Of a stretch of 64,000 nucleotides of DNA, positions 6,759-64,000 are shown piece after piece (the first letter of the stretch is position 1; the number at the start of each line of letters is the position of its first letter). The notes under the pieces were generated by a model. The model saw only the letters and a list, made by a program, of their open reading frames with translations, was not told the origin of the DNA and did not search any database. Origin of the DNA: Pontibacter populi (lineage in GTDB: Bacteria; Bacteroidota; Bacteroidia; Cytophagales; Hymenobacteraceae); the NCBI RefSeq assembly GCF_019336435.1, contig NZ_JAHWXQ010000003.1, forward strand, positions 310,001 through 374,000. Direction: 5' to 3'. The translations under genes were made by a program, and so were the position numbers.

Positions 6759-7967
6759 TTATAAGGGTACTACAAGTTCTGTCTCTTTTGATTCAGATAA
6801 AATATTTGATGAAAGTTGATGTTGCTTTTGCTGCAGCACTTTTACTGCTTCGGTAACTATAGTTTCGTTTATCTGATGCACTTCCACGCCGTGGCCTATT
6901 TCGTCCAGCAGCATAATGGTCAGTTGCCCGCCCAGGTGCTCCCGGAACTCAGTTAAGCCTCTTAAGATGCTCAGCTGGCCATTTTCTATAGTTGAAAGAT
7001 GTTCTGTGTAAATATCAAAGCCGAGTTTGTGGAGCAGGTTCAGGATATCATTACAGGCCTCCGCAGAAAGCATTCCACTTAGCCTGGCATACACTATATC
7101 CAGGGCAATGCCAATGGCTACTGCTTCGCCGTGGCGCAAACTATAGTTGCTGAGCTGTTCCAGTTTGTGGGCCGCCCAATGGCCAAAGTCCAGCGGTCTG
7201 GAAGAGCCGAACTCAAACGGATCGCCGCCACCAATATGCTCCACGTGCATTTCGGCACAACGGTGTATCAGGCGGTTCATAGCGCGCATATCGCGTTGTT
7301 TCAGTAAACTGGCATCGGCTTTTATGCTATGGTAGAAGCTGGCATCTTTTATCAGGGCTACTTTTATGGCTTCTGAAATGCCGCTTCGCCAGTCGCGTTC
7401 GTCTAGAGTTAGTAAAAAATTACTGTCATTAATAACGGCAACCGGCGGCGCAAAGGTGCCCAGGAAGTTCTTTTTGCCAAAGGCATTCATGCTGTTCTTT
7501 ACGCCCACACCCGAATCATTCTGTGATAAAACCGTAGTTGGGATGCGGATGAGGCGGATGCCGCGATGCGCAATAGCCGCTGCAAAACCAGCCAGGTCCA
7601 GCACGGCACCACCGCCAATGGCTACCAGGTAAGAGTGACGGCAGATGCCGTATTGGTTGATGCTTTCCAGTACCTGTTGCAGCACTTCGGGATTGTTTTT
7701 GCAGGCTTCGCCGCCCGGTATAATAAGCGGTTTGGCAGCTAACGTCATCGCATCAGCATGAGTCGTCGTATAGTTCAGGATGGACTGCAGCAGGAACGGA
7801 TGCGATTCGGCTACGCCGCTATCTATAACAAAAAATACTTTTGCAGGTGCATGGCTGCTTTGTTGCACTACATCGCGTAGCATGGCGTTTTCCTGCTCAA
7901 AAATATCTTCTGTAAAATAGATGCCGTAGTTAAACTGCACGGCAAAAGATTGTTGAATTGATCTCAT
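6759..7967 (-). CDS. eboD: EboD: 3-dehydroquinate synthase-like sugar phosphate cyclase
   Basis: 402 residues. The NAD-binding signature IGGGAVLDLAGFAAA, the loop IPTTVLSQNDSGVGVKN and all three zinc ligands of dehydroquinate synthases are recognisable: Glu in SGISEAIK, His in LDFGHWAAH and His in SLRHGEAVAIG. The active site therefore looks competent. The usual SSVGGKT signature reads SGVGVKN, which sets it apart from AroB and fits the distinct EboD branch of the sugar phosphate cyclase family. Substrate and product are unknown. It lies 16 bases after eboC and 11 before eboE, so it is in the same transcript. Housekeeping AroB would be encoded elsewhere. Confidence 0.92.
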   Translation of the reverse strand: MRSIQQSFAVQFNYGIYFTEDIFEQENAMLRDVVQQSSHAPAKVFFVIDSGVAESHPFLLQSILNYTTTHADAMTLAAKPLIIPGGEACKNNPEVLQQVLESINQYGICRHSYLVAIGGGAVLDLAGFAAAIAHRGIRLIRIPTTVLSQNDSGVGVKNSMNAFGKKNFLGTFAPPVAVINDSNFLLTLDERDWRSGISEAIKVALIKDASFYHSIKADASLLKQRDMRAMNRLIHRCAEMHVEHIGGGDPFEFGSSRPLDFGHWAAHKLEQLSNYSLRHGEAVAIGIALDIVYARLSGMLSAEACNDILNLLHKLGFDIYTEHLSTIENGQLSILRGLTEFREHLGGQLTIMLLDEIGHGVEVHQINETIVTEAVKVLQQKQHQLSSNILSESKETELVVPL

Positions 7968-7983
7968 AAACCTTAACTATAGA

Positions 7984-8895
7984 TCAGGTTACAGCGAAGC
8001 GTTTCGCCATAAACATCGATACTGGTAACAACAAAAGAACCGCTAAGCCATACTGCCAGCCGGCAAATCCAGCGGCAATGCTTGCGTTCATCACGATCAG
8101 GGCCAGAATACCTGCCTTTACGGCACGCATAATAAACTGCGGCTCCGGCGACGGCATAGCCCGGAACAATGGCGGAAAAACCAGGTACGCAAACAGCGCC
8201 AGGAACGGCAAACTATATGCTAACGAAAACTGCGGCAATAAGGCTAAACTGGCAATTCCGGCAAAAACAATAAGGTATAACGCCACCGCACCTTTTAGTG
8301 CTTTTGTGCTGCCCCCGTGCACTTCCCCGCGACTGATCATGGTGATAGCCGAGATGTAAATGATCGGAATAAAAGCGATGAACCATAGTTGCTCCAGGGC
8401 AGCAGGTATGGCACTTACACCCAGCAGCAGGTTACCACCACGACAACTACCCATATTGATCGGGCCGAGTACAGGATGGTGTTTGCCTTTCCAGTCGTAA
8501 AGCACGGCCAGGCCAGCAACAATAGCCGCAATGATGGCACTAACTACAGAAACCTGTAAAGCGGCAACTATACCTACTGTTAAAAGCAACATGCCCAGTA
8601 AAGATGCACCGGCTATAGTTGCTTTTCCACTCGGGATAGGGCGTTCCGGGCGTTCTACTCTGTCTAGATCCGCATCAAATACATCGTTAAACACCACGCC
8701 GCCGCCATACAAGCCAATCGTTGACAGTATAAGCCAGGCCAGGATCTCAAATCCATTCTCCGGAAAATCTCCCCGAACATGTGTAAAGGTTAAGACCACA
8801 GCACCTGATGCGGCAAAACCCATCAGGATATCGGCAATGGCGGTTACGATGTTTGCTGGCCGCATCAGGCGTATGTAAGCTCCGAATGAGGTCAT
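7984..8895 (-). CDS. eboC: EboC: UbiA-family prenyltransferase
   Basis: 303 residues, very hydrophobic with about eight to nine membrane helices. The first Asp motif of UbiA-type transferases is at residues 70-78 (NDVFDADLD), followed by RVERPERPIPSG; the second region is YDWKGKHHPVLGP with MGSCRGGNLLLG. These residues bind Mg-prenyl diphosphate in characterised relatives, so EboC probably transfers an isoprenoid group in the inner membrane. The acceptor is unknown; a product of EboD or EboE is an inference. Its start is one base after the eboB stop codon, indicating translational coupling. Confidence 0.93.
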   Translation of the reverse strand: MTSFGAYIRLMRPANIVTAIADILMGFAASGAVVLTFTHVRGDFPENGFEILAWLILSTIGLYGGGVVFNDVFDADLDRVERPERPIPSGKATIAGASLLGMLLLTVGIVAALQVSVVSAIIAAIVAGLAVLYDWKGKHHPVLGPINMGSCRGGNLLLGVSAIPAALEQLWFIAFIPIIYISAITMISRGEVHGGSTKALKGAVALYLIVFAGIASLALLPQFSLAYSLPFLALFAYLVFPPLFRAMPSPEPQFIMRAVKAGILALIVMNASIAAGFAGWQYGLAVLLLLPVSMFMAKRFAVT

Positions 8896-8896
8896 G

Positions 8897-9838
8897 TTAA
8901 CGGATAATGTTAGAATCGAAGATCGGGTTGGTTCTGATCTCGCCTATAGTTGGCAGCTGTCCGCCACGCAGAATAGAGTTGTTGAACAGCTTCTGGCTCT
9001 GGTCTATGGTTGTATTGTCCATCCAGTCGCTTTCCTTCATCTGACCGCTCTGGCCAAAAGCGTCCAGCGCATTCTGGTAGCACACTTTATGAATATCATC
9101 CACGCTGATGCCTTGCTCTAACATCAAAGAAGCAGTTTTAGGTACGGCCAGTGGATCGCTGATGCCCCAGTCGGCAGCGCTATTCACAATAATTCGTTCC
9201 GAGCCGTATTGCTTCACGATCTCTACCATGCGTTCGTTGCCCATTTTGGTGTTTGGGTAAATGGTAAAGGCTGCCCAGAAGCCACGGTCCAGCACATCGC
9301 GCACAGTTTCTTCGTTGTTGTGGTCCACAATAACCATGTGTGGTTCCAGCTTATGTTCCAGAGCCACTTCCATACTACGGATGGTGCCGGCTTTTTTATC
9401 GCGATGCGGGGTATGTATTTGTACCGGCAGGTTGGCTTCTTTGGCCAGGTCCAGCTGTAATCTATAGTATTTGTCTTCTGCTGCGGTCTGGTCGTCGTAA
9501 CCGATCTCACCAACACCCACCACGCCTTCTTTGCAGATGAATAGCGGCAGCAGGTCCATCACTTCTTCGGCCAGCGCCTCGTTGTTGGCTTCCTTAGAGT
9601 TCAAACCAATGGTGCAGTAATGCTTTATCCCAAACTGACTTGCCCTGAAACGCTCCCAGCCAATCAGGCTGCTGTAATAATCTTTGAAAGAGCCCAACTC
9701 GGTACGGGGCTGCCCCAACCAGAAAGCAGGTTCAATAATGGCCACAATACCGGCTTTCTGCATAGCTGCATAATCGTCGGTGGTGCGGGATGTCATGTGA
9801 ATGTGTGGATCGATGAATTTCATATTCAAAGTATTCAT
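8897..9838 (-). CDS. eboB: EboB: TatD-family metal-dependent hydrolase
   Basis: 313 residues. The HxH pair (His12, His14 in DPHIHM), the Glu of GVGEIGYDD, His in VQIHTPH, His in VIVDHNNEE and the Asp in VNSAADWG line up with the metal ligands of TatD/amidohydrolase TIM barrels. The site appears intact, so a hydrolase is likely, but the substrate is not known. An alternative ATG lies five codons in (MKFIDPHIH). The gene follows eboA by 36 bases and abuts eboC. EboB members form their own subgroup apart from the DNase TatD proteins. Confidence 0.92.
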   Translation of the reverse strand: MNTLNMKFIDPHIHMTSRTTDDYAAMQKAGIVAIIEPAFWLGQPRTELGSFKDYYSSLIGWERFRASQFGIKHYCTIGLNSKEANNEALAEEVMDLLPLFICKEGVVGVGEIGYDDQTAAEDKYYRLQLDLAKEANLPVQIHTPHRDKKAGTIRSMEVALEHKLEPHMVIVDHNNEETVRDVLDRGFWAAFTIYPNTKMGNERMVEIVKQYGSERIIVNSAADWGISDPLAVPKTASLMLEQGISVDDIHKVCYQNALDAFGQSGQMKESDWMDNTTIDQSQKLFNNSILRGGQLPTIGEIRTNPIFDSNIIR

Positions 9839-9874
9839 TAGCGTAAAGGGTTAGGTTCGGGGTGATATATAATT

Positions 9875-10765
9875 TTAGGCTGTGATCGCTTTCTGGCCGA
9901 TGTGGCTCCAGTTAAGCTGCCCTTCTTTGATCTTGTGTTTTAACAGGGGGTGTTGGTCCAGTAACGCCTGTGCTTCCGGGTAACTGCTTTGTGTGCAGGC
10001 AAGGGCAGCGGCTTCATGTTCCGTCTCGTTTTCGCTGGCGAACAGCTTTTTGATGTCGGAGATTATAGTTTCGTTGATATACGGACCAACCGGGCGCCAT
10101 AGTTCGGGTGTAACGGTGCGGCCGGCAGCCCAGCGCTCGTGCGCGTAATCTGAAAGCATGCGAGCCAGGTCTGGGTTGCTGCGCTCATCCAGCCCATAAA
10201 TTTTATGCAGCGACTTGCCTGTGAATATTGTTTTCAGCACCAGTTGGTTCCAGGCGGCTTCTATAAAGTTCTCGAAAGGGTAGGGGTTGTTTAAAGCAAT
10301 GGCTTCGTACACGTTGCCCATGTTTGTCCGGATGCCTTCGGTGGCCTGCGCTACAAATTTTTCAGGATGCGGCAATAGTGGCAAGGCAGCGTATAGTGCT
10401 ACCAGTTCGCCCATGTCGGCGGTGCCAAATAGCTTTAGTATCGTTTTGCTATAGTTATCAGCGTTATCGTGCGGCAGGCTTAGCAAAAGTATAGTCCGGG
10501 CCAGTTGGTCTGTGGTCCAGTTAGTTGGGTTAAAACCTTTACGCAGCTGGCTTGCCTGTTCCAGTTCATCTGGTGTCAGGCTTAACATCGATTTGCCTAC
10601 GTAACGTGGCGCAGCACTGAAGGGTAAGTATAAGTCCTTGCCGGTTTCAGATGATCTCACCAGGTTTTGTTTTTCTTTCAGCCATTGTGCAGCCGCAGGC
10701 GTAGCTTGGCGGTCGAAAAGTTGTTCCAGAAAAGCGATAGTGTTCGGTAGAAAGTTGCTATACAC
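9875..10765 (-). CDS. eboA: EboA domain protein, first gene of the ebo operon
   Basis: 296 residues, with a GTG start at 10765. The family pattern is strong: LYAALPLLPHPEKFV (written here as ALYAALPLLPHPEKF), EGIRTNMGNVYEAIALNNPY, IYGLDERSNPDLARMLSDYA and HERWAAGRTVTPELWRPVG. The protein is mostly helical, has no signal peptide and no recognisable catalytic motif; the C-terminal part resembles HEAT-like helical hairpins. EboA has no established biochemical role. As the 5'-most gene its upstream region (10766-11038, shared with divergent mug) must hold the operon promoter. Confidence 0.93.
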   Translation of the reverse strand: MYSNFLPNTIAFLEQLFDRQATPAAAQWLKEKQNLVRSSETGKDLYLPFSAAPRYVGKSMLSLTPDELEQASQLRKGFNPTNWTTDQLARTILLLSLPHDNADNYSKTILKLFGTADMGELVALYAALPLLPHPEKFVAQATEGIRTNMGNVYEAIALNNPYPFENFIEAAWNQLVLKTIFTGKSLHKIYGLDERSNPDLARMLSDYAHERWAAGRTVTPELWRPVGPYINETIISDIKKLFASENETEHEAAALACTQSSYPEAQALLDQHPLLKHKIKEGQLNWSHIGQKAITA

Positions 10766-11038
10766 TGTTTCGTTCGGTTAGGTATCAGATCGGTAGCCGG
10801 TAACACGACTTAATTTTCCTGGAGGCGTACGTTCGTACATCAACTGGTATTAAGAATTGCTCCCGACTATATTTCGTTTTGACTAAGTACGACTATGAAA
10901 CTATAAGGTTGAGGCGAGTTGTATTAACTACAACCCTTGTTATGTGCCGGAATTGTATTAAAATATGTAAAACACTATATATTAGCTTAATCCTTACAAT
11001 TTGGTTGCTCGCTGGGTAAAAAGAATAGCATAAAATCA

Positions 11039-11599
11039 ATGATAAAACCTACAAAGGCGGATATTATAAATTCACAGAACAGCACTATACGTGATGTGAT
11101 AGCGCCTGGGCTGGATGTGCTCTTTTGTGGAATTAACACCGGCCTGTATTCTGCTGCTACGGGGCACCATTTTGCCCGCCCGGGTAACCGTTTCTGGCCT
11201 ACGCTTTACCGTTCAGGTTTTACGCCACGCCTGTTTGCGCCCGACGAAGAACTGGAACTGATCTCGTTAGGCTACGGCATTACCAACATTGTGGACCGGG
11301 CTACGGCAGCAGCAGCTGATTTAACTATAGAAGAACTGAAACAGGGCGGCCTTAACCTGGAGCGTAAACTACAGGTGTTCCGGCCAAAAGTATTGGCCGT
11401 TTTAGGAATCTCCGCTTACCGAACTGCTTTTAACCAGCCCAAAGCCGTACTGGGCCGCCAATCCGAATTAATCGCTAACACTAATGTTTGGGTATTGCCT
11501 AACCCCAGTGGTTTAAACGCACATTTTCCGCCGGTTAAGCTGGCTGAGGTTTTTAGAGAGTTCAGGGATGAGTTGGATGGATTAGGGTTGAGGAGTTAG
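11039..11599 (+). CDS. mug: G/U mismatch-specific DNA glycosylase (Mug/TDG)
   Basis: 186 residues. The Mug/TDG signature is present: GINTGLYSAATGHHFARPGN near residues 32-51, and NPSGLNAHF near residue 155. In the E. coli enzyme the first motif is GINPG and the Asn activates the catalytic water; that Asn is kept, with Pro replaced by Thr. The enzyme removes uracil or thymine and ethenocytosine mispaired with G, in cytoplasmic base excision repair. Single gene, divergent from eboA, and followed by 800 bases of repeats with no close terminator. The ATG at 11039 overlaps no alternative start. Confidence 0.93.
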   Translation: MIKPTKADIINSQNSTIRDVIAPGLDVLFCGINTGLYSAATGHHFARPGNRFWPTLYRSGFTPRLFAPDEELELISLGYGITNIVDRATAAAADLTIEELKQGGLNLERKLQVFRPKVLAVLGISAYRTAFNQPKAVLGRQSELIANTNVWVLPNPSGLNAHFPPVKLAEVFREFRDELDGLGLRS

Positions 11600-11929
11600 T
11601 TGTTCAGGAGTTATCATAACTCAGTCGTTTGCTAAATTTGGGGGGTGTTTGGTATAGCTAAACCTTTAGTTTTATAGTTTCTCTTTTTTGATGGCGCGGG
11701 TTTGTAACCCGTGTCTTACTATGGTGTTGAGTTTTCTGACTCAACTGGCCCGGCAGGGACAGGAATTGTCTGAATCAGGATTTATAGGATTAAAGGATTG
11801 GCAGGATTGAGTTTTTTGCTATTGTTTGGTTTATAGTTTTATAGTTGCAGCGTTAACACCCCTGTAGTCCCCTCAAGGGGACAATCTCTGCCTTGATTAT
11901 AATTTGGGGCTATAGTTTTATAGTCTCAG
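11600..11929. repeat. Intergenic short hairpin repeats downstream of mug
   Basis: No gene. At 11691-11749 two hairpins follow each other (arms CGGGTT/AACCCG, then GTTGAG/CTCAAC) within a frame that recurs at 22370-22424 with different but still complementary arms. Near 11862 lies a CCCCT...AGGGG hairpin of the class seen in the longer repeats. TTTATAGTTT half-words are frequent. Confidence 0.7.
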
Positions 11930-12281
11930 ACCACAAGCAGGGCAGGTTTACCTGTCCCTTCGGAATAATAGCCACGATAAAAAGTCGAAGTTTACCGGCT
12001 CAAACTATAGTTAGTGGTAGCTATGAGAAACTTCTCAGTCTTTGGGTGGAGCGCCTTGTGAATATCTGGTGGCGCCAGGCATTTCGAGGTACGAGAAAAG
12101 GAAATGTACACCGCGCGATGCCCGAAGACGGGGCTTCCCGGCACCAAAGCCAACTATGACAACTATAGGTTAGTAAAGCTCCCAGGATTAGAAGTAACTA
12201 TAAAAAAGGCTTGGTTCAGGTTGCAACTGTAGTTAGCTAAAAGCTGAGATAGATTTCTCTCTGCGTTCGAAATGACAAAAG
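11930..12281 (-). repeat. Dispersed modular repeat, copy R1 (inverted, shortened)
   Basis: Read on the minus strand it begins TTTGTCATTTCGAACG and matches the first 350-400 bases of copies R2 (15489), R3 (40378) and R4 (60484): the shared landmarks are GAAATCTATCTCAGC, TTTGGTGCC, CCCCGTCTTCGGGCATCGCG, GGCGC...ACCCAAAGACTG and the hairpin around ACCTG...CAGGT. It lacks the C-rich module that ends the other copies. Any open frame here is a by-product of the repeat. Confidence 0.85.
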
Positions 12282-12359
12282 AAAGGCTTTTGTACCTAGC
12301 TTTCTCGCCTCAAGCTTGGTTTGACAGAAGTATAAAAGTTATCAATGCTTTGTAAGCAT

Positions 12360-12396
12360 AAAAGCCGCTTTGCGATAAACAAAGCGGCTTTTTTTA
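12360..12396. terminator. Terminator between convergent genes
   Basis: Arms AAAAGCCGCTTTG and CAAAGCGGCTTTT enclose a 7-base loop. Seven T follow on the plus strand, and four T on the minus strand, so it could serve mug (far upstream) and the phosphorylase-like gene that ends at 12410. Confidence 0.8.
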
Positions 12397-12409
12397 AGCT
12401 GAATATAGA

Positions 12410-14062
12410 TTAGTAACTATAAAGTTTCTCGTAATACTCATGTGCCATACGGTCTGAGCCGAAGAACGGTAACACATCAAACATACTTTGCTTCATGATG
12501 CCGAGCCATTTACCCCGATCATGATAATAAGCAGGGGCAATCTCGTGCTCCAGGATATGCATCAGGTTTTTATGGTCTTCTGAATCCTGTAGATGCTCTG
12601 GTAGATTGGTATCCACTATAGGCAGAATGAAGCTGTTTTCGCCGTGGCGTGCATATTCCGGCAACCAGCCATCCTGGATCGAAAAGTTTATGGATCCATT
12701 CATAGATGCAGTCATACCGCTGGTACCCGATGCTTCGCGCGGACGACGTGGCGTGTTAAGCCAAACATCAGAACCCTGCTTTAGTTTGCGCGAAAGCTCC
12801 ATTTCGTAACCGGACAACACGGCCATGTTCGGCTGTTTCTCCGACAGGTCCACCAGCTTATTAAATGTATTTACCGCTCCTTCATCAAAAGGATAAGGCT
12901 TGCCAGCCCAAATAACCTGTACCGGACGCTCTTTGTTATTGATAATTGTAAGGAAGCGTTCAAAATCACGAACCAGAAGATCAGGACGTTTGTAAGCTGC
13001 AAAGCGGCGTGCCCAAACTATAGTTAACACCTCAGGATTAAACAGCTTCCCTGTCTGGTCAGATACAATCTTGAACAGCAGGTGTTTCATTTCCTTTTTG
13101 CGAACCACCAGAACATTGTCGTTGCCAGACTGCAGCGCATCCCAAAGGTCATCATCGGTCCAGTAATTAGCGTGCTGTGCGTTTGTAATGGCTTTTATTT
13201 CGCAGATTCCGTGGTTCTCATTCCACATCTGTCTGGCTACTTCACCGTGCAACTGCGATACACCGTTGGCAACTTTAGAAAGACGCAGGGCAGCCAGCGT
13301 ATGGTTAAATAAGTGGCCGTCCATGTGGGTTAACTTTCGCACTTCTTCCAGCGGAGTCCCATTAAAGAAGCTCATTCTGTCCAGGAAGTTGGTGTCATGC
13401 TCTTCGTTGCCAGCTTTTTCAGGGGTGTGCGTGGTGAACACCATGTGCTCACGCACTTTTTCTACGCTTCTGTATTTATCAAGCAACCAGAATGAGAGCG
13501 GAAGAGCATGTGCTTCGTTCATGTGGTAAACTTCGGCACCGCCAAGGGCTTCCACCACTTTACCGCCGCCAATACCCAGCACAATACTCTGGGCAATTCG
13601 GGTGCTCATTTCCGGGTCGTATAAACGGTGCGTAATTGTTTGTGCCAGGTAATCGTTTTCAGGAATATCGGTGCTCAGGAAATACATCGGGACAGTACCA
13701 AACACTTCTGGTTTAAGCACAAGCGCCTTTACTTTTACCTCGTGGCCGTTAACAGCAACAGAAACAGTGATGTCAGTTTCTTCCAGGAACGTATAGAATT
13801 TCTTCTGAAACTGGGCCCGCATACTCTGATCGTCGTGGCGCACCTGGTCATAATATCCATATTTCCAGAGCATTCCGATACCGATCATGTTCTGACGCAG
13901 ATCATGGGCACTGCGCATATGCGAACCAGCCAGAAACCCGAGGCCGCCAGAATAGATCTTAAAGGCTTGATCGATACCATACTCCATGCTGAAGTAGGCG
14001 ACTCTCTTATTGTATTTTTCGTCAATATCGTACGGGTGATACCACCTGTTGTATTGTGTCAT
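12410..14062 (-). CDS. Alpha-glucan phosphorylase-like protein (GT35) with Thr at the PLP-lysine position
   Basis: 550 residues of the alpha-glucan phosphorylase family, short bacterial form. Family landmarks: AYFSMEYGI and YSGGLGFLAG at the N terminus, VYHMNEAHA near residue 180, VFTTHTPEKAGNEEHD, VWARRFAAYKRPDLL near 345, and RPREASGTSGMTASMNGS near 442-459. In characterised phosphorylases the last motif carries the lysine that binds pyridoxal phosphate (SGMK or GNMK); here that residue is Thr451. If the alignment is right, normal PLP-dependent phosphorolysis would be impossible, so it may be a regulatory or differently acting protein, or a member of a lineage where this is normal. Cytoplasmic. 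GlgX and a GH15 enzyme elsewhere in the window act on related substrates. Confidence 0.82.
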   Translation of the reverse strand: MTQYNRWYHPYDIDEKYNKRVAYFSMEYGIDQAFKIYSGGLGFLAGSHMRSAHDLRQNMIGIGMLWKYGYYDQVRHDDQSMRAQFQKKFYTFLEETDITVSVAVNGHEVKVKALVLKPEVFGTVPMYFLSTDIPENDYLAQTITHRLYDPEMSTRIAQSIVLGIGGGKVVEALGGAEVYHMNEAHALPLSFWLLDKYRSVEKVREHMVFTTHTPEKAGNEEHDTNFLDRMSFFNGTPLEEVRKLTHMDGHLFNHTLAALRLSKVANGVSQLHGEVARQMWNENHGICEIKAITNAQHANYWTDDDLWDALQSGNDNVLVVRKKEMKHLLFKIVSDQTGKLFNPEVLTIVWARRFAAYKRPDLLVRDFERFLTIINNKERPVQVIWAGKPYPFDEGAVNTFNKLVDLSEKQPNMAVLSGYEMELSRKLKQGSDVWLNTPRRPREASGTSGMTASMNGSINFSIQDGWLPEYARHGENSFILPIVDTNLPEHLQDSEDHKNLMHILEHEIAPAYYHDRGKWLGIMKQSMFDVLPFFGSDRMAHEYYEKLYSY

Positions 14063-14385
14063 AGGCTCAAAATTTAAATAAAAACCAACAAGTCAGGTCT
14101 ATAGTTTCTGTAAAAGCAATAAACCCGAAATGTTACTTTTCTGGCTTGATAAAATTCTACCAGTCGGTAAAAATAAGGTATAGCCAGGCAGTGCAAGATT
14201 ACAACCCTGAACTGCTCTAACCAAATCATTCACAAAATACATGCCTGTAACTACTTCTGTATCTTTATATTTTAGGAAAATGGTCCCGGAATAGTATACT
14301 TGGCGCTTTAAACATGTCGTTATAGTTGAACCAATGCTGCCACAACCGGCATTGTAGCTTATAGTTTAATTACTTATAGTTGTAT
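14063..14385. other. 323-base divergent intergenic region
   Basis: It separates the phosphorylase-like gene (minus) from the transglutaminase-like gene (plus) and should hold both promoters. It is AT-rich and contains several ATAGTT half-words (near 14102, 14325, 14361 and 14376). No RNA gene or terminator is visible. Confidence 0.5.
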
Positions 14386-15462: not shown

Positions 15463-15488
15463 AAGGTATATTTTACTGTAGTTTCTTC

Positions 15489-55483: not shown

Positions 55484-55501
55484 GACGCAACGTATTGCGT
55501 C
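55484..55501. repeat. GACGCAA/TTGCGTC hairpin
   Basis: A perfect 7-4-7 hairpin (GACGCAACGTATTGCGTC), sister to 25991-26010, in the gap between nuoB and the DUF4242 gene. Confidence 0.7.
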
Positions 55502-55567
55502 ACTACATTTCCAAATACTATATCTGTATAACTCTTTAACTCCAAAATTCTCAAACTCCTAAACTGA

Positions 55568-56206
55568 CTATAGTTCATCCGGCGACCTGAACTCTGTCAT
55601 TTGGTCCCATCGCTCGCGTTTTCGGGCTTTCACTTCTATCTTCTCAGGTTTGATGACACCCTGTTCACCAATGGTCCAGCTGAGTGGTCTTCGTTCTTTG
55701 CCAACTGATTCTGCCAGCAGCATCAGGCCTTCCATAAAAGCATCGGGGCGGGGTGGGCAACCTGGCACGTACACATCTACCGGCAAGAATTTATCGACAC
55801 CCTGTACCACACTATAGATGTCGTACATGCCGCCGGAATTAGCGCAGGAACCCATTGAGATCACCCATTTCGGTTCCATCATCTGCTCGTGCAGGCGCTT
55901 AATGATCGGGGCCATCTTAATGAAAACTGTACCGGCAATGATCATGATATCGGCTTCGCGGGGAGTGCCGCGGATAACTTCTGCACCAAAACGCGCCACG
56001 TCATACTTGGGAGTCATGGAGGTCGCCATCTCTACAAAACAACAACTCAACCCAAAATGGAAAGGCCACATGGAGTTTTTGCGTCCCCAGGCTACCAGGT
56101 CCTGCACGGTGGTGAGCATAATACTTTGCTGCACGGTTTCTTCGTAAGAGCTGTTGCCCTTCACGGTGTTGGCAGGTTCTTCCGGTTTACTTAACCACCA
56201 TTTCAT
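55568..56206 (-). CDS. nuoB: NADH-quinone oxidoreductase subunit B
   Basis: 212 residues. Ligands of cluster N2 are visible: the twin Cys in LSCCFVEMA, Cys in [12 protein letters not shown] and Cys in [10 protein letters not shown]. It lies directly at the quinone site. The C-terminal 40 residues are charged ([14 protein letters not shown]) and longer than in E. coli. First peripheral-arm gene after nuoA; the spacer of 145 bases to nuoA is empty apart from a weak hairpin. Confidence 0.96.
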
Positions 56207-56351
56207 AGGCGTAGAGGTTTGGTGTTTCTATGTCGTATTTCGTCAGTGCATCAGGGTTGGGTGAGGGTCGTTACTGGTTATTTGTGGCGTGGTGTTCGTT
56301 AATCGAACTATGAATAGTATGTCTTTCTTCAAATACTTTTCTGGCTGGAAA

Positions 56352-56780
56352 TCAAACTGCAGGCTTTTGCATGCGCTTATAGGCTGCCAGTATCTTTTTC
56401 CCATCCGGACCGAAATCCAGCGCGCCCATGCGCCATTCATAGATCAATACCACCACCAGCATCACCATAAACACGGCCACACCGGCATAACCGTACCAAC
56501 CCAGTTCTCTGAAAGCTATAGCCCAGGAAAGTATAAATACCGTCTCCACGTCAAAAATTACAAAGAGCATGGCCACCATGTAAAACTGTGAGGAGAAACG
56601 GATGCGCGCGGAGCCTTCGCTAACTATACCGCCTTCGTAAGGCTCGTTTACGGCACGGCCTTTACCACGCTGACCCAGCACAAATGAGATAGCAAGTATA
56701 GCACCAACGAGGCTCAGCACTATAGCGCCGTATACCAGCAGGGGCCACAAAGGCGCGTTATTTACTTCTGAAGCGTCCAT
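56352..56780 (-). CDS. nuoA: NADH-quinone oxidoreductase subunit A
   Basis: 142 residues, three membrane helices (about 11-33, 66-88 and 96-118). KGRAVNEPYEGGIVSEGSAR and FYMVAMLFVIFDVETVFIL with the acidic pair in the second helix are signatures. Small membrane-arm subunit near the quinone channel. Starts the nuo operon proper, 44 bases after the CBS gene. Confidence 0.95.
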   Translation of the reverse strand: MDASEVNNAPLWPLLVYGAIVLSLVGAILAISFVLGQRGKGRAVNEPYEGGIVSEGSARIRFSSQFYMVAMLFVIFDVETVFILSWAIAFRELGWYGYAGVAVFMVMLVVVLIYEWRMGALDFGPDGKKILAAYKRMQKPAV

Positions 56781-56824
56781 AATGCTTATGGTTTTATACT
56801 ACACGCAACTATAAATTCTGGTAC

Positions 56825-57262
56825 TTACTCCTGGTGGCCGGTAATGTAATGTTCCAGCTCTTCTATTATGAACTTCTGCTCTTCTATCATGTATCTTACA
56901 ATATCACCGATAGAGACGATGCCGACCAGGTTGTTATTATCGAAAACCGGCAGGTGCCGGATATATTTGCTTGTCATGAGGGCCATGCATTGCTCCATGG
57001 TTGTGTGGGGAGTAACGGTTACAGGGTGCTCGCTCATAATTTCTTTTACAAGCGTTTCTTTTGACGCCCTGCCTTTCAGGATCACTTTGCGGGCATAATC
57101 CCGTTCAGTGACAATACCTGCAAAACGGCCGTTGTTCATCACTACAAGTGAGCCGATACGGTTTTCTTCCATCAGCTCAAGTGCACTATAAACGGTGGTT
57201 TCCGGACTCACAGAAATAACATCACCGCGTTTTTTCTGCAGAATACATCGAACGGTTCCCAT
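56825..57262 (-). CDS. CBS-domain protein upstream of nuoA
   Basis: 145 residues made of two CBS repeats (about 8-65 and 72-130; landmarks RIGSLVVMNNGRFAGIVTE and RHLPVFDNNNLVGIVSIGD). CBS pairs usually bind adenine nucleotides or NAD, so this is a sensor module with no output domain. The gene is 44 bases from nuoA and on the same strand, so it may be co-transcribed with Complex I; a link to energy charge is inference. No signal peptide. Confidence 0.9.
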   Translation of the reverse strand: MGTVRCILQKKRGDVISVSPETTVYSALELMEENRIGSLVVMNNGRFAGIVTERDYARKVILKGRASKETLVKEIMSEHPVTVTPHTTMEQCMALMTSKYIRHLPVFDNNNLVGIVSIGDIVRYMIEEQKFIIEELEHYITGHQE

Positions 57263-57689
57263 ACTTCCCCCTTCCGTAAATAAGTTAATTTGAATATTTA
57301 GAACTATATACGAGTCGAATAAAAAAAAGTAAATAAAATATATGTTGGTTTATGTTTTGTACAATATTGTTTCAACTATAGTTTAAAGATGTATGTGGTT
57401 TATAAGTATCTGATAATAAGGAATAAGTATGTTTGAATTCTTGCTAAAATGTTAATTATTGGAAATTAAGGGTGTAAAACCCGAGACTTGTTAGAAGGAT
57501 GTTATTAAATTGGGATAGCGTAGGAGGAGCGTGTGAAATGTATGAAAAATCATATTCTTTAAATAAAGTCGTTCAGGGGTTTCCAATTTTTTTATAGTTG
57601 GAGTCTTCTTAACTATTTGTTTGCAACAAAGTATAATAGAGGCACTCAGAAGTACAATCCGAGTGCATTCATTCTATAAGCTGATCTAT
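57263..57689. other. 427-base divergent intergenic region (nuo/CBS and glgX)
   Basis: AT-rich spacer that should carry the promoter of the CBS-nuo operon and of glgX. It contains a complete AACTATAGTT at 57374-57383. Clear promoter elements or RNA genes were not identified. Confidence 0.55.
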
Positions 57690-59867
57690 ATGAGTATACC
57701 AATATACCCTGGCAACCCGTATCCTCTGGGCGCTACCTGGGACGGAGAAGGAGTAAACTTTGCACTTTATGCCGACAATGCTACAGGCGTTGAACTTTGC
57801 CTGTTTGATGATATAACCAGCGAGCAGGAGTCGGTAAAAATAAAGATGGTAGAGCGTACACACCAGATCTGGCATACTTACCTGCCCGAAGTAGGACCCG
57901 GTCAACTATACGGCTTTAGAGTGCAGGGCCCGTACGAGCCTGAAAACGGGCATCGGTTTAATGATAATAAATTGCTCCTCGACCCTTATGCCAAAGCTAT
58001 TTCAGGAGCTGTAGAGTGGCATGATTCCTTATTTGGCTATAAAGTAGGGGACCCGAAAGAGGACCTGAGTTTCAGTGAAACCGATAGTGCTCCTTTTATA
58101 CCAAAGGCTGTAGTAATTGATCCTAACTATGATTGGGAAGGTGATAAACCACCTAAGACACCTTACTTCAGATCTATTATTTATGAAACACATGTAAAGG
58201 GTTTTACTTACCTGCATCCCGATATACCAGAAGAAATTCGCGGCACTTATGCCGGGCTGGCACACCCGGTAACTATAAAGTACCTGCAGGAACTAGGTAT
58301 AACAGCCATAGAACTTATGCCGGTTCACCATTTCATAAAAGACAGGCACCTGGCCGAAAAAGGCCTGACAAACTACTGGGGCTACAATTCTATTGGTTTC
58401 TTCGCTCCGGATGTACGCTATAGCAGCAGTGGCACATTGGGCGAGCAGGTGGTAGAGTTCAAAAATATGGTGAAGGCATTCCATAAAGCGGGAATAGAAG
58501 TTATTCTGGATGTGGTTTATAACCATACCGCCGAGGGCAACCATCTGGGGCCGACACTTTCGTTCAAGGGAATCGACAATGCATCTTATTACCGACTCAC
58601 GGAAGACAACAAGCGCTTTTACATGGACTATACTGGCACCGGCAATACCCTGAATTCGAGTTTGCCAAGTGTGCTTCGTTTGATCATGGACAGCCTGCGT
58701 TACTGGATTCTGGAAATGCACGTTGACGGCTTCCGCTTTGACCTGGCCTCAACACTGGCCCGTGAACTACACGAAGTCGACAGGCTGGGCTCTTTTTTTG
58801 ATATCATTCACCAGGACCCGGTTATCTCGCAGGTAAAATTAATTGCCGAACCCTGGGATATAGGGGAAGGCGGCTACCAGGTAGGTAATTTTCCGCCGGG
58901 CTGGACCGAGTGGAACGGCAAGTACAGGGATTGCATGCGCGATTACTGGCGTGGTGAAAACAGTATGCTGGCTGAGTTTGCCGATCGCTTTACCGGAAGT
59001 TCCGACCTGTATCAGGATGATTACCGGCGCCCGACGGCCAGTATCAATTTCATAACTGCCCACGATGGCTTCACTCTGAACGACTTGGTATCTTATAACG
59101 AGAAGCATAACGAGGCAAATGGTGAGAATAACCAGGACGGCGAAAGCCACAACCGCTCCTGGAACTGCGGCGCAGAAGGCCCGACCGATGATAAAGCTAT
59201 AGTTGAACTACGGCAGCGTCAGAAACGCAACCTGCTTACAACGCTCTTTTTATCGCAAGGCGTACCTATGCTGGTAGCCGGAGATGAGATAAGCCGCACG
59301 CAACAGGGCAACAATAACGCCTATTGCCAGGACAACGAAATATCCTGGCTGAACTGGGAAAAGGCTGATAACGAATTCCTTGATTTTACTCGTAAATTGA
59401 TCGCGCTCCGTAAAAAGCACCCGGTTTTTTGTCGCCGGCGCTGGTTCCAGGGGATGCCGATAAAAGGCCTTGGAGTAGAAGATATTGCCTGGTTTTTGCC
59501 GGATGGGACAGAAATGACGGACGAACACTGGAACCACGATCATGCGAAATCACTCGGCATTTATATGAACGGTCACGGGTTGCGCAGCGTGGGCCCGAAA
59601 GGAGAACAGATGATCGATGACGACTTTTACGTGATCTTCAACGCGCACCATGAGCCGCTTAAGTATAAACTGCCTTCTGAAAAATATGGCACCAAATGGA
59701 TTAAAGTGATTGATACTACTACCGGGCAGGTAGGTGAAAATGGTAAAGCATACAGTGCAGGTAAAATGCTGGAGGTAGGCCCCAGATCAATTATTCTACT
59801 ACATTCTAAAACTGAAAAGAAGCCTAAAGTTGCTGAGATGGCCCGTAAGTCAGGCGCTCCGATTTAA
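57690..59867 (+). CDS. glgX: Glycogen debranching enzyme (GlgX, GH13)
   Basis: 725 residues from the ATG at 57690 ([19 protein letters not shown]); the frame runs 23 codons further up but without a typical N terminus. An N-terminal CBM48-like domain is followed by the GH13 barrel with [26 protein letters not shown] (nucleophile Asp near 349), LIAEPWDIG (Glu near 386) and ITAHDGFTL (Asp near 458). It removes alpha-1,6 branches from phosphorylase-limited glycogen in the cytoplasm. Divergent from the nuo operon, 55 bases before the DUF4268 gene. Confidence 0.95.
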
Positions 59868-59922
59868 ATGTTAGTTGCTACCGAAATTTCTGATTGTCGG
59901 GAGTAATTGCCAATTTTGCTGC

Positions 59923-60384
59923 ATGTATACACGCGAACAAGCTTCACAACTTCGTCAGGCCTTCTGGACAGCTTTCGGGCAATATATTGCACCGCAACTG
60001 TCGGCAGACGGATACCGGACGAACTGGTCTAACTATAAAACGGGCTTAAAGCATGTTTACTTCCGGATGCGCGCCGAAAAGAAAACGGCAACAATAAGCA
60101 TAGAACTCACTCACCCGGACCCTGAAATACAGGAACTTTACTTTGAGCAGTTCGAAGAACTAAAAACCCTGTTGCATGAAACGTTGGGAGAAAAATGGGA
60201 GTGGGAACTGCACGGTGAAGACGAAGATGGCAGAACGGTAAGCAGGATTTACAAAGAAATTTCCAAGGTAAACGTTTTCAATAAGGAAGACTGGCCCCAG
60301 CTTATTTCCTTCTTTAAGCCCCGTATTATTGCGTTGGATGAATTCTGGAGTAATGCCAAGTATAGTTTTGATGCGTTGAAGTAG
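59923..60384 (+). CDS. DUF4268 protein
   Basis: 153 residues from the ATG at 59923; a start 16 codons upstream at 59875 is in a Cys-rich stretch and less likely. The sequence MYTREQASQLRQAFWTAFGQ, NYKTGLKHVYFRM and EKWEWELHGEDEDGRTVSRI is typical of the DUF4268 family, small alpha/beta proteins with nuclease-like-fold relatives but no proven activity. No signal. It follows glgX by 55 bases and may be co-transcribed. Function unknown. Confidence 0.82.
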   Translation: MYTREQASQLRQAFWTAFGQYIAPQLSADGYRTNWSNYKTGLKHVYFRMRAEKKTATISIELTHPDPEIQELYFEQFEELKTLLHETLGEKWEWELHGEDEDGRTVSRIYKEISKVNVFNKEDWPQLISFFKPRIIALDEFWSNAKYSFDALK

Positions 60385-60483
60385 TGTTTCAATCGAGATT
60401 AATAAAGAATAAAAGATTTCTTTAGACCTGGCAGTGTGCGCAGCTCCTGCTAGTGTCTGGATTATAGTTGATTTACTTCTCTT

Positions 60484-61121
60484 TTGTCATTTCGAACGAA
60501 GAGAGAAATCTATCTCTACTTATAGTTGAAGTCCACTACAAACTTGAACCAAGCTTTCCTGCCATAGCTGCTTCTACTCCTGAGAGCTCTACACACCTAT
60601 CGTTTCATTTTCAGCTTTGGTGCCCTCACGGCCGGGAGGCCCCGTCTTTGGGCATCGCGCGGTGTACATTTGCTTTGCTCGTCCCTCGCAATGCCTGACG
60701 GCACCGCAAATCTACAAGGCGCTCAACCCAAAGACTGCGAAGTTTCCCATAGCTACCAGCAACTATAGTTTGAACAGGTAAGCTTCGAGACTTATCGTGG
60801 TAGTAGTTTCAAAGGGACAGGTAAACCTGTCCTGCTCGTGGGCTTAAACTATAGTAAACTCAGATTTCTCCTATCGTCGAAATGACAGCTCTAAAAGCAG
60901 TAGCAGAATGTCCCCCTTTGAAGGGGGCAGGGGGATGACTAGCAGTAACTATAGAACGATAAATCAACCACAACTATAGCAGCAATTCCCCTCTAGGGAG
61001 GGGTAGGGGTGGGTTAAATCAGCAACAAAGAAACCATACCTTCAACTATAGCAGTAACCTTAAAAGCTCCCCGCCTTAGATAAGGAGGGGTTGGGGGTGG
61101 TTGGACCACGCCAACTATAAA
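60484..61121 (+). repeat. Dispersed modular repeat, copy R4
   Basis: Same order as R2 and R3: GTCATTTCGAACGAAG end, GGTGCCCTCACGGCC, hairpin GGACAGGTAAACCTGTCC at 60815-60832, CCCCTCTAGGGAGGGG, CCCCGCCTTAGATAAGG. Unlike the others it shows, near 60863-60889, the inverted end GATTTCTCC...TCGAAATGAC, so the first 400 bases are bounded by inverted termini like those of the short hairpin elements. The 792-base gap between the DUF4268 and PBP genes holds no gene. Confidence 0.9.
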
Positions 61122-61176
61122 ACTAAAACTATTACTAATATCTCAAACCGCCCCCCTTAATCCCGGTTCAGGTAAT

Positions 61177-63654
61177 TTAATCTTGCCCTCGCTTTTCTTT
61201 CCGTTCGCGTTTGCGTTCCTCGCGGCGTTTCTTTCGTTCTTCCTTCCAGTCTTTAAAGGTGTCTTTTACCTTTCCGCCTACGTTATCAAACAGCCTTTCA
61301 AAAAAGGTCTCGTGGGGAGGCTCTTCCCGGAAGGATGGGCAGTCTACCAGGTTTTGCAGGTAGGGTGCCAGCTTTGTGAAATGACTTTTATAATAACCTA
61401 CATAAGCCGGATCGAGCGCAATTTGTTTGTTAAAATCTCCCCAGATTGGTAGAGCAGTACTGGACCCCTGGCCTAAAGCTAAAGTTCTAAAACGTACTTT
61501 CGGGCTTTCGGCACCCACCCATACGCCTGTTACCAGGTTAGGCGTTATTCCTATAAACCAGCCATCGGCATTGTCCTGGGTTGTTCCGGTTTTACCGGCA
61601 ATATCCATCTGCAGTCCGTACTGAGAACGTAATTTGGCGGCGCTGCCTTCCTCTACCACACCCTGCATCAAATACAACATTATTGCAGCATTAGACTCTG
61701 AAATAGCCCTGCGTACGTGCCGATCCGACCTGTGTTTATGAAGTACTTTACCACTGCGGTCTTCTATTTTACGGATGTAGACTGGCTCAACTTTATATCC
61801 CTGGTTAGCTATAGTTGCGTAAGCATTTACCATTTCATACAGCGACAGATCTGCCACGCCTAACGCAAGAGAAGGCACCTCAGGTATATCGCTTTCTATT
61901 CCCAACCGATGTGCCACATCTACTACTTTATTTACACCAGCCTTCATCATTACCTGCGCCGACACCGTGTTTACCGAATGCGCCAAACCACCACGCATGG
62001 TATATTCGCCACCGTATTGGTCAGTAGCATTTCTTGGTGACCAGTCGTCGTACTCCGGGTAAGTGATGCGCTCGTTCGGGAACCAAGTACAGGGCTCCAC
62101 GCCACGCTCTAAGGCTGCGGCATAAACTATAGGTTTAAACGTAGAGCCTACCTGGCGCCTGGATCGCACATGGTCATATTTAAAAACATGGTGGTTGATT
62201 CCACCTACCCAGGCTTTTATTTCGCCGGAGTAAGGGTCCATCGAGAGCAGGCCGGCGTTCAGGAATTTATGGTAATAGGCCAACGAATCCATCGGCGACA
62301 TGGTGCGTTGTTTGTTTCCCTGCCAGCTGAACACAATCATTGGGCGTTCTTTTCGGAAAGCCTCTATGATCTCAGCATCGGTTTTGCCATCGGCCTTTGC
62401 TTTTTTGTAGCGGTCGGTACGGCGCATGGCTTCCTGCAGGAAACCAGCGCCGCGGCCCCACGGGTTGCGGCCGTTCCAGTGAGCATCAAACGTACGTTGC
62501 AGGGCTGCCATTTTATTGCGAACAGCTTTCTCGGCGTGCTCCTGCATACCAGCATCTATTGTTGTATAGATCTTTAGCCCATCGGTATATAGGTTATAAG
62601 GGTCACCGTTTTTCTTCTTTTTAGTTGCTACCCATTCCACCAGTTCCTGGCGCAATTGCTCCCGAAAATAGGGTGCCATGCCATCGTTATGGTTCGTAAC
62701 AGTGTAATCCAGTTTAAGCGGTTTCTTTTTCAGATCTTCGGCTTTACCGGCTTCCAGGTAGCCGTATTTCACCATCTGGTTCAGCACTACATTACGTCTG
62801 GTTTTCGACTTTTCGGGATTCAGGCGCGGGTTGTAGGTGGTGGTAGCTTTCAGCATGCCAATTAAAACGGCAGCTTCTTCGGTTTTCAGGTCTGCGGCAG
62901 ATTTGTTGAAGAAACGACTCGAAGCCCGCTCGATGCCATACAGGTTTCCTCCCATCGGCACCGTGTTCAGGTATAGTTCCAGCAGTTCTTCTTTAGAATA
63001 AATACCTTCCAGTTTGCGGGCAATAATGATCTCGCGGAGCTTGTTTACCGGCATATCCCAGAACCAGAAATTCTTGCGGGGATACAAATTTTTCGCCAAC
63101 TGCTGACTAAGCGTACTGCCACCACCGGCACTCTGGTCCTGCATCAAGATAGATTTAACTATAACCCGGCCTAAACTGCGCACATCTACCCCGGCATGTT
63201 CATAAAACCGGGCATCTTCGGTGGCAACCAGCGCATGTATAGCAGCAGGAGCAATATCAGTATATTTAACATTAGTGCGGTCCTGTATATAATAGCGGCC
63301 CAGTAGCTCGCCACCGGCAGCATATACTTCCGATGCTGTATTGTTTTGCACCGATTTCAGTTCGTTACGCGAAGGCATGGCACCCATAGCGCCCATGTAT
63401 ACCAGCAGGTAAAAAAACGTGAAAAGAAGCACCATGTACAGGCCCGAACGGTAAGCAATGCGCAACACCGATCTGCGATCGCGGCGCCAGTTAAAGGTGC
63501 GCAGCCTGGCCCATTTCTGTTTCCAGTAAGCTGTAGTTAGTTTGGGTTTCTGGCTCCTGAAGAAGGCTGACCACTCTACCTTCATAAACCTGGCCAGTGG
63601 CTCCAGGATGCCGATTACTATGAGTCTGATTAATTTTAAAAGCGCGCGCTTCAT
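61177..63654 (-). CDS. Class A penicillin-binding protein (PBP1A-type)
   Basis: 825 residues from the ATG at 63654 (a GTG six codons upstream is possible). A basic cytoplasmic N terminus and one membrane anchor (about 68-92) precede the GT51 glycosyltransferase domain with ATEDARFYEHAGVD (catalytic Glu) and GGSTLSQQLAKN, and the transpeptidase domain with STFK (QVGSTFKPIVYA), SVN and KTGT (AGKTGTTQDNADGWF). It polymerises and cross-links peptidoglycan. The C-terminal tail is very basic (KERRKRREERKRERKEK). Single gene, followed by repeat R4. Confidence 0.93.
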   Translation of the reverse strand: MKRALLKLIRLIVIGILEPLARFMKVEWSAFFRSQKPKLTTAYWKQKWARLRTFNWRRDRRSVLRIAYRSGLYMVLLFTFFYLLVYMGAMGAMPSRNELKSVQNNTASEVYAAGGELLGRYYIQDRTNVKYTDIAPAAIHALVATEDARFYEHAGVDVRSLGRVIVKSILMQDQSAGGGSTLSQQLAKNLYPRKNFWFWDMPVNKLREIIIARKLEGIYSKEELLELYLNTVPMGGNLYGIERASSRFFNKSAADLKTEEAAVLIGMLKATTTYNPRLNPEKSKTRRNVVLNQMVKYGYLEAGKAEDLKKKPLKLDYTVTNHNDGMAPYFREQLRQELVEWVATKKKKNGDPYNLYTDGLKIYTTIDAGMQEHAEKAVRNKMAALQRTFDAHWNGRNPWGRGAGFLQEAMRRTDRYKKAKADGKTDAEIIEAFRKERPMIVFSWQGNKQRTMSPMDSLAYYHKFLNAGLLSMDPYSGEIKAWVGGINHHVFKYDHVRSRRQVGSTFKPIVYAAALERGVEPCTWFPNERITYPEYDDWSPRNATDQYGGEYTMRGGLAHSVNTVSAQVMMKAGVNKVVDVAHRLGIESDIPEVPSLALGVADLSLYEMVNAYATIANQGYKVEPVYIRKIEDRSGKVLHKHRSDRHVRRAISESNAAIMLYLMQGVVEEGSAAKLRSQYGLQMDIAGKTGTTQDNADGWFIGITPNLVTGVWVGAESPKVRFRTLALGQGSSTALPIWGDFNKQIALDPAYVGYYKSHFTKLAPYLQNLVDCPSFREEPPHETFFERLFDNVGGKVKDTFKDWKEERKKRREERKRERKEKRGQD

Positions 63655-63831
63655 GTATGCTGTTAAATTCACTGCCTGTAACTATAGTTTATTATCGGCA
63701 GTTGGCGGATTGGACACAAATACTGCGCCATATCCAGATCCGGTTTGTAACGTAATTTCCGGCAAAATTGTGCAATTATAGTTTAAATTCCGTGGTTAGG
63801 TTACGTATCTATAGTTTAACTCAAACAAACT

Positions 63832-64000
63832 ATGGCAGGCACGGCACGTTTTAAATTCCACGCTACGCTTAACGTTTTCCTGGAGCTGCACAGGAAAGAC
63901 ACCTGGATAAACTATAGTTTCGTGGAGAGCCCGGCTGTGAAAGATGCCCTAGAAGCCATGGGTGTGCCGCACCCCGAAGTGAATGCTATAGTAGTGAATA
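63832..64000 (+). CDS. Mut7-C ubiquitin-like protein, N-terminal part
   Basis: 56 codons are seen from the ATG at 63832 and the frame is open at the window edge. MAGTARFKFHATLNVFLELH, SPAVKDALEAMGVPHPEVN and AIVVN fit the Mut7-C_ub domain, a ubiquitin-like fold that precedes a PIN-like Mut7-C RNase domain in related bacterial proteins. The RNase part, if present, lies beyond the edge, so function is only a suggestion. Inside the coding sequence a full AACTATAGTT palindrome (63910-63919) is read as Asn-Tyr-Ser. Confidence 0.8.
   Translation, partial: MAGTARFKFHATLNVFLELHRKDTWINYSFVESPAVKDALEAMGVPHPEVNAIVVN

Follow-up and report, generated by a model that had tools for sequence, protein, structure and literature searches.

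A genus-wide, TATA-cored iterated word with clade-specific spellings in Pontibacter genomes

We analysed a stretch of 64,000 nucleotides from Pontibacter populi (contig NZ_JAHWXQ010000003.1, positions 310,001 to 374,000; G000:C5:310001-374000, where G000 is the source genome), which is called the window here. The stretch is filled with copies of the ten-base palindrome AACTATAGTT and of a shorter word, AACTATA. Our analysis showed that the window holds one dialect of a genus-wide, exact, asymmetric and TATA-cored Pontibacter word, which is spelled AACTATAG (AAC) in the clade of the window genome, AGGTATAG (AGG) in one other clade, and AAGTATAA (AAG) elsewhere. Iterated genome words are known mainly from the Neisseriaceae and Pasteurellaceae, where they act in DNA uptake, and from cyanobacteria, where the highly iterated palindrome HIP1 is unexplained.

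Open reading frames (ORFs) in the window were called greedily, with a minimum of 90 codons. The palindrome occurs 22 times, and ten of these copies lie inside ORFs: at 6855..6864 and 7139..7148 (both in ORF 6759-7967(-)), 13016..13025 (alpha-glucan phosphorylase ORF 12410-14062(-)), 16813..16822 and 17263..17272 (menD ORF 16163-17911(-)), 18397..18406 (ORF 18019-19230(-)), 37352..37361 (ORF 36471-37706(+)), 41711..41720 (ORF 41072-42532(-)), 49344..49353 (nuoG ORF 48567-51302(-)) and 51959..51968 (ORF 51284-52585(-)). The other twelve are intergenic. Four of them are found in mosaic repeats, at 12003..12012 (between convergent genes), 15854..15863, 40776..40785 and 60761..60770; two are in a convergent intergenic region, at 22330..22339 and 22482..22491; and six are at 27932..27941, 30025..30034, 31680..31689, 57374..57383, 63680..63689 and 63910..63919. 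The two copies in the convergent region stand between the arms of an inverted repeat (22255-22584; 40-nt arms, 88%, 250 nt apart). An earlier sequence-only reading of the window had listed 21 palindromes; all 21 are exact matches, and the copy at 27932 had been overlooked.

The number of palindromes is far above chance. Dinucleotide shuffling of the window gave 0.09 expected copies (100 shuffles, maximum 1), which agrees with the estimate of well under one per 64 kb made before. In the whole genome (4,304,021 bases) we counted 1124 copies, against 5 for the reversed-word control, and the claim that an iterated word runs through the genome on both strands, in and between genes, is borne out. 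The sequence-only reading had also proposed a comparison with Markov models of order 5 or 6. With models fitted to the window, the expectation was 0.07-0.77 at orders 1-3, 7.6 at order 4 and 21-26 at orders 5-8. The expectation at orders 5-8 comes near the observed count because the seven-base half-word is itself over-represented; thus the proposed test is blind to the signal. Among the matches listed for the ten-base palindrome in the open-access literature, all were on Plasmodium falciparum malaria.

The palindrome had been taken as the unit, with its half-forms described as much more frequent and present in both coding and non-coding DNA. The second part of this description holds. AACTATA has 206 copies in 1..64000, with 106 on the plus and 100 on the minus strand; 108 are wholly inside ORFs, 93 wholly between them and 5 across an ORF edge. 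An order-2 Markov model predicts 10.2 copies, and similar excesses were found for ACTATAG (132 vs 5.3) and for CTATAG sites (108 vs 11.4). The base after AACTATA is G in 110 copies, A in 66, C in 24 and T in 6, and the over-represented unit in the window is AACTATA(G/A).

The first part does not hold. We examined 2176 TATA tetramers in four AAC-clade genomes (304 kb), of which 546 have AAC on the left, 527 have GTT on the right, and 131 have both. Independent halves would give 132.2 palindromes. By compartment, the counts are 69 vs 55.7 in coding DNA and 62 vs 85.6 between genes. Because the palindrome is no more frequent than a chance overlap, AACTATAGTT is two overlapping AACTATA-type copies that share the self-complementary TATA, and we rejected it as the unit. 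The unit is an asymmetric 7-8-mer, about 10 nt long when its soft flanks are included. The related dialects have fewer palindromic forms than independent halves would give (9 vs 53.7 and 2 vs 13.1), since position 8 there favours G or A over the palindromic C.

The word is also exact. Relative to dinucleotide expectation, the exact 7-mer is 20-36 times enriched, words with one mismatch 1.5-2.3 times and words with two mismatches about 1.0 times, and this pattern was found in coding and intergenic DNA of all three dialects. The exact to one-mismatch counts in the AAC clade are 490:438 between genes and 556:1039 in genes. These are loosely like the ratios of 1:1.15 and 1:1.45 for the longer DNA uptake sequences (DUS) of the Neisseriaceae, as given in passages of Frye et al. 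2013 (PMC3630211).

Coding AACTATA was found 108 times in the window and 10.4 times after synonymous-codon shuffling (20 shuffles, maximum 15), and in nine genomes the coding words were at 8-13 times the level of shuffles preserving both protein sequence and codon pool. The word is therefore not restricted to dispersed repeats, a restriction that would have undone the earlier interpretation. Sense-strand copies in the window are read as Thr-Ile ((x)A-ACT-ATA) in 42/66 cases and as Asn-Tyr (AAC-TAT) in 18/66, as had been suggested. In four AAC genomes, ACT-ATA writes 42-46% of the Thr-Ile dipeptides, and 184 of these 210 ACT-ATA pairs have an A before them; in four AGG genomes, it writes 0-6%.

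Uptake sequences affect the proteome in other bacteria. Here, Thr-Ile reaches 5.3-6.0 per 1000 in the four AAC genomes vs 3.8-4.4 in the AGG genomes, and Arg-Tyr (AGG-TAT) reaches 2.5-3.0 per 1000 in AGG genomes vs 1.8-1.9 in AAC genomes. Lys-Tyr is not raised in the single AAG genome sampled (2.4 vs 1.7-2.8 in others). These shifts hint that protein composition may have been altered a little by the word.

We then compared third codon positions between related genomes. In AAC pairs, identity at third positions within AACTATA was 0.79-0.93, against 0.52-0.70 at codon-matched positions (z 7.3-10.6); in AGG pairs, identity within AGGTATA was 0.80-0.87, against 0.43-0.52 (z 9.8-11.0). Both AAC and AAG words are conserved in the mixed pair G027/G033 (z 8.2-9.9). 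Neither AAG nor AAC words showed an excess in AGG pairs (z −1.5 to 1.6), and four anagram controls showed none either (z −2.5 to 1.6, with small numbers). A weaker excess is found for AAG words within the AAC clade (z 2.1-5.4); for AGG words, z rises to 3.2 in one AAC pair and to 3.0 in the mixed pair. Synonymous-site conservation is dialect-specific. It is also confined to the word: third-position identity 6-15 bp away is slightly below average, and lower mutation near words was rejected for want of such a halo. Word positions are not shared across dialects: among 30 coding AACTATA sites aligned to the AGG genome G066, none had AACTATA there, and AGGTATA was outside the five commonest states shown.

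These data bear on the idea that a short-patch repair enzyme, or a mutation bias, turns near-words into words with no function involved. The near-neutral one-mismatch class beside the excess of exact words fits such a one-step bias, and so does the missing halo. However, word sites of G000 differ at several positions in other dialects (TACCATC or CACCATC for AACTATA), thus repeated repair steps would be needed. In addition, second replicons and islands of the same cells are mostly near background (see below), although short residence could explain this. Altogether, we consider biased repair improbable.

The word is placed more densely between genes than in them. In G000 there are 9.8 copies per kb between called ORFs vs 2.0 per kb inside, and in AGG genomes about 2.9-3.5 vs 1.3-1.7. 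Overall, there is about one copy per 280 bp in AAC genomes and one per 580 bp in AGG genomes and in G035, an AAG genome. Spacing in AGG genomes is near random (coefficient of variation, CV, 1.04). Orientation relative to genes is near neutral, and no bias was seen where the flanking genes are co-directional or divergent. Where they converge, in four AAC genomes, 148 AACTATA copies point against the nearer gene and 62 with it. Low counts lean in this direction for the mixed genomes (12 to 6) and G035 (8 to 3), and in the other for AGG genomes (4 to 10).

In the window, the convergent regions are mosaic repeats of roughly 700-800 bp made of hairpins and words. Such dispersed intergenic mosaics lie between convergent genes at 11600-12409, 15463-16162, 40312-41071 and 60385-61176. 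They consist of GC-rich hairpin modules spaced by AACTATA, in minus orientation to the left and plus orientation to the right of a central palindrome. Dispersed repeats were rejected as the cause of the word: the mosaics are word-rich, yet coding words by themselves are far in excess of synonymous shuffles, as given above.

An abundant, sequence-specific putative DNA-binding protein could use the word for chromosome organisation, and drift of its specificity would then produce the dialects. An exact word on both strands, with near-random spacing, little gene orientation outside convergent regions and conservation confined to the word itself, is consistent with such an architectural role. However, the densities given above are far beyond an apparent anchoring need, and in the phylogeny described below the word-less state is gained or lost four to five times, at scattered points. 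This nucleoid explanation has, in our judgement, a rather low probability.

The dialects were surveyed by whole-genome counts in 50 Pontibacter genomes. An AxxTATA word was found in 39 of the 50, of which 20 have mainly AAGTATAA, 12 AGGTATAG and 5 AACTATAG, and 2 are mixed. With their soft flanks the words are approximately CAGGTATAGC, AAAGTATAAA and (C/A)AACTATAG(T/C). The other 11 genomes (G002, G007, G024, G025, G026, G028, G034, G064, G067, G068 and G069) have no word or faint traces; this class takes true absence and weak traces together, with faint or odd words in G007, G069 and G068. The odd words are TATATAA/CTATATA in G068 (L125, L251, L252) and GGTATAAA in G069 (L165, L253), and it is possible that they are further dialects.

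Copy numbers are in the thousands and nearly equal on the two strands. AGGTATAG has 1397-2713 copies per strand in its 12 genomes (2713/2509 in G017). AAGTATAA exceeds 1000 per strand in 23 genomes, in 20 of which it is the main word (3300/3584 in G062). AACTATAG has 3115-4160 per strand in G000, G060, G018, G031 and G065, and 998-1310 in the mixed G027 and G033; in G000 the count is 3115/3177, with 82/112 for the control. Samples of 64-80 kb around the nuo region agree: the top 7-mer is AACTATA in G000, G060, G018 and G031, AACTATA together with AAGTATA in G027 and G033, AAGTATA in G035, and AGGTATA in G066, G015, G016 and G059. The classes are not absolutely clean. G065, labelled AAC in the tree, keeps 1080/1045 AAGTATAA; G071, labelled AAG, has 455/452 AACTATAG; and spellings of other dialects are often at 2-4 times the reversed control, e.g., AGGTATAG at 200/198 vs 58/92 in G000. 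A report of these words, or of uptake words in Pontibacter, was not found among the matches listed in the open-access literature searched.

A NuoG protein tree was built from 44 Pontibacter genomes with full-length NuoG and two outgroups; G002, G007, G019, G028, G030 and G034 have no full NuoG and were left off. By NuoG, close relatives of the window genome are P. burrus (97%), Pontibacter sp. Tf4 (95%) and P. fetidus (94%), which puts it in Pontibacter, near P. burrus. AGG genomes form one clade (100/100), and AAC plus mixed genomes form another (100/100), so for these 44 of the 50 genomes the dialects follow phylogeny, as DUS dialects do. AAG is scattered over the rest of the tree, including the lines nearest the outgroup, and is therefore probably the ancestral spelling. 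The word-less state requires four to five changes and is found beside word-bearing sisters (G068 with G001, G024 with G020, G069 with G036/G070).

Within the AAC clade, the two spellings vary in opposite directions. Forward-strand AAGTATAA counts in G033, G027, G065, G031, G000, G060 and G018 are 2215, 1983, 1080, 433, 457, 410 and 414, and the corresponding AACTATAG counts are 1004, 1307, 3140, 3520, 3115, 3772 and 4048. This looks like a dialect switch seen at different stages. Within the clade, G033 pairs with G065 (98/99) and not with G027, thus the pace or history of the switch differs between lines.

The sequence-only reading had likened the word to HIP1 and named methylation as a candidate reason. 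An orphan methyltransferase for the word would direct its accumulation, following the model of Elhai. According to Elhai 2015 (PMC4390886), HIP1 (GCGATCGC) is, like the Pontibacter word, a genome-wide iterated word that varies between lineages, and cyanobacterial iterated words occur with methyltransferases. The Pontibacter word differs from HIP1 in being asymmetric and AT-rich, in following clades, and in not tracking the four methyltransferase families searched.

PF01555, PF00145 and PF02086 are sporadic, with matches in 31/50, 23/50 and 13/50 genomes. PF01555 is absent from G000, G060, G018, G031 and G033, and PF00145 and PF02086 are absent from 27/50 and 37/50 genomes, word-rich ones included. 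Some match to PF02384 was found in 50/50 genomes, which would suit a methylation mechanism. However, P. cellulosilyticus (G061) has no match to the first three families, and its PF02384 matches are two short ones that only just pass the cut-off (E 7e-5 and 4.5e-4, covering about 100 of 311 positions), which are probably not DNA methyltransferases. This genome, with no clear match to any of the four families, is word-rich, with 2370/2588 AAGTATAA (4958 in total). We rejected a methyltransferase as a need on the basis of these four families; PF07669 and other families were not searched. Since the word is not palindromic either, the methylation reading is weakened, and we regard it as very improbable. 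Uptake, repair and architecture, the other reasons proposed earlier, stay among the readings.

The distribution of the word between resident and mobile DNA was then considered. In three AAG genomes the second contig (74-204 kb) was taken as a second replicon, and 60 kb of each was sampled. AAGTATA was found 11 times in G001:C2, 18 times in G021:C2 and 31 times in G020:C2, where about 7, 11 and 10 are expected, and eight of the nine 20-kb parts are within about 2.5 times of expectation. For comparison, the G020 chromosome has 24 copies in 20 kb. In G031, an island at L244:10700-16000 has 3 words in 5.3 kb, and the adjoining 10.7 kb has 50; a second stretch, in L246, has 4 words in 10 kb, and a neighbouring 10 kb has 35. 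Words are mostly rare on the three second replicons and two islands sampled. The first island adjoins an HscB-like gene and encodes a serine recombinase and an SMC/AAA-like protein. The second, at L246:10777-18228, resembles a mobile defence locus; its products include a C5 methyltransferase, DUF3871, and PRTase-CE and ORC-CDC6-like proteins.

This distribution is also in keeping with a Chi-like word, which would stop a nuclease of the AddAB/RecBCD type and thereby spare self DNA for repair while foreign DNA is degraded. Known Chi sites are asymmetric, exact 7-8-mers, rich on chromosomes and biased to the leading strand. The Pontibacter word shares the first features, being low on most sampled second replicons and islands. 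Chi motifs also differ between lineages, as passages of PMC8022716 describe. However, no replication-strand bias was found in the closed genome G031 oriented by GC skew (477 vs 445, 15 × 20 kb), and the word, unlike Chi, is denser between genes than in them. Thus we consider a Chi-like role unlikely.

Because the word is short, exact, asymmetric and equally common on both strands, with dialects that follow the tree, genomes that hold two dialects, loss of the older spelling, overlapping dyads, few copies on most of the mobile DNA sampled and perhaps a slight effect on the proteome, we hold a DUS-like tag of self DNA, independent of type IV pili, to be the most likely reading. We hold it tentatively, at somewhat less than even probability, and do not assert membership among the DUS. 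As described in parts of Frye et al. 2013 (PMC3630211), Neisseriaceae DUS are short exact words with thousands of copies in and between genes; they have clade-specific dialects on a robust tree, with two dialects in one genome, and overlapping dyads in the case of S. muelleri. The Pontibacter words, short, in thousands of copies on both strands and far above chance, are similar. Mobile elements with atypical DUS density, reported in a portion of PMC7371117, may have a counterpart in the mobile DNA sampled here, most of which is word-poor. The differences are that Pontibacter belongs to the Bacteroidota, that its word is shorter and TATA-cored, and that no type IV pilus ATPase was found (39 genomes).

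Natural competence has been described in the Bacteroidota. Sections of PMC8459023 and PMC7965970 report that Riemerella is naturally competent with ComEC-dependent uptake and has no pilus homologues, and that R. columbina prefers its own DNA. The candidate k-mers given for Riemerella are A-rich, unlike the Pontibacter word, and those sections contain no AxxTATA word or dialect.

Several results weigh against a self-DNA tag. Selection on any DNA-binding role would reach the same equilibrium. The known type of DUS receptor, a type IV pilus with a ComP-type minor pilin, seems to be absent: for PF00437 (type IV pilus/secretion ATPase), none of the matches in the 39 listed Pontibacter genomes is full-length, and three weak ones just over the cut-off cover about 60 residues of 646-648-aa proteins. 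The comEC gene is found in 50/50 genomes, every word-less one included, and so does not track the word; for the same reason, comEC loss was rejected as the cause of word loss. It has an internal stop in two word-rich genomes (G009:C76 and G022:C1) and a short open frame in a third (G018:C23), and the remaining 47 open frames are of 702-736 aa. In the comEC neighbourhood of G031 (L244), where 20 ORFs of at least 100 aa are listed, a scan of 10 proteins gave no obvious candidate for a receptor. Second replicons are not uniformly poor, as one 20-kb part of G020:C2 (L232) has 20 copies. A 12-kb core respiratory stretch of G031 with oxidase and Fe-S genes (L245) has only 8 words, thus word poverty is not unique to mobile DNA. 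Finally, intergenic density in the AAC clade is very high (9-12 per kb), partly from the mosaic repeats.

If the word is a self-DNA tag, it would mark long-resident chromosomal DNA, and selection or molecular drive would build and keep it at synonymous and intergenic sites. Biased import or recombination of self DNA would be the likeliest way for this to happen. A putative cell-surface or recombination protein would read the word, so that word-bearing fragments enter or recombine more often, and the word would spread in the way DUS do in the Neisseriaceae and Pasteurellaceae. When the specificity of the reader changes, the old word would decay and a new one would spread; G033, G027 and G065 seem to be in the midst of such a change.

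More specifically, and with greater reserve, we propose that Pontibacter has its own form of self-DNA recognition, independent of the type IV pilus, based on a TATA-cored word and on a reader of a new class. Its specificity may have switched at least twice, once to AGG and once to AAC, with AAG as the probable starting point; G033, G027 and G065 would be in mid-switch, and this would be the first uptake-type dialect system in the Bacteroidota. If this is true, synonymous and intergenic sites were rewritten by the thousand at each switch. With 50 genomes, three clade-specific spellings, an apparent switch in progress and word-less lines beside word-bearing sisters, Pontibacter makes the origin, change and loss of iterated words testable by comparative genomics. 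The word also offers a way to trace how the Bacteroidota take up DNA or recognise their own, a machinery whose outer-membrane step is unsettled, and it may serve as a signature for recently acquired DNA in Pontibacter genomes.

Outside the genus, none of the three words was above about threefold in 16-20-kb samples of 19 genomes from other families of the order, and they were absent from the top words in 20-kb samples of 20 genomes from five other genera of the family. None was found in loci of about 20 kb from Rufibacter, Adhaeribacter, Sabulibacter, Chitinophaga, Pedobacter and Dyadobacter. A milder [C/G]TATA excess was seen in Ohtaekwangia koreensis and three loci of metagenome-assembled genomes (L180-L183), with CTATA at 579 vs 198 in 91 kb and, in one of these loci, AAGTATA at 24 vs 7.2; this is perhaps a distant form of the Pontibacter phenomenon. 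Different iterated words were also observed. G074 (genus g25, same family) has ACCTAGG/CCTAGG at two distant places (L105, L254), with ACCTAGG at 47 (3.3 expected) and CCTAGG at 47 (6.8 expected) in 35 kb. In G140 (genus g26, L118), palindromes of the TGACGTCA type are in excess, and ATGACGTCA occurs 9 times in 20 kb vs 0.1 expected.

In the window itself, the nuo (complex I) genes occupy 44133-55014, where NuoL, NuoG and a fused NuoC/D protein were identified. The same region contains three perfect copies of a 27-28-nt sequence, CGGTACGAGCTGCAAGCTCGCACCAGCA, at 47434-47508 and 53155-53183, two of which are mutually inverted and 20 nt apart.

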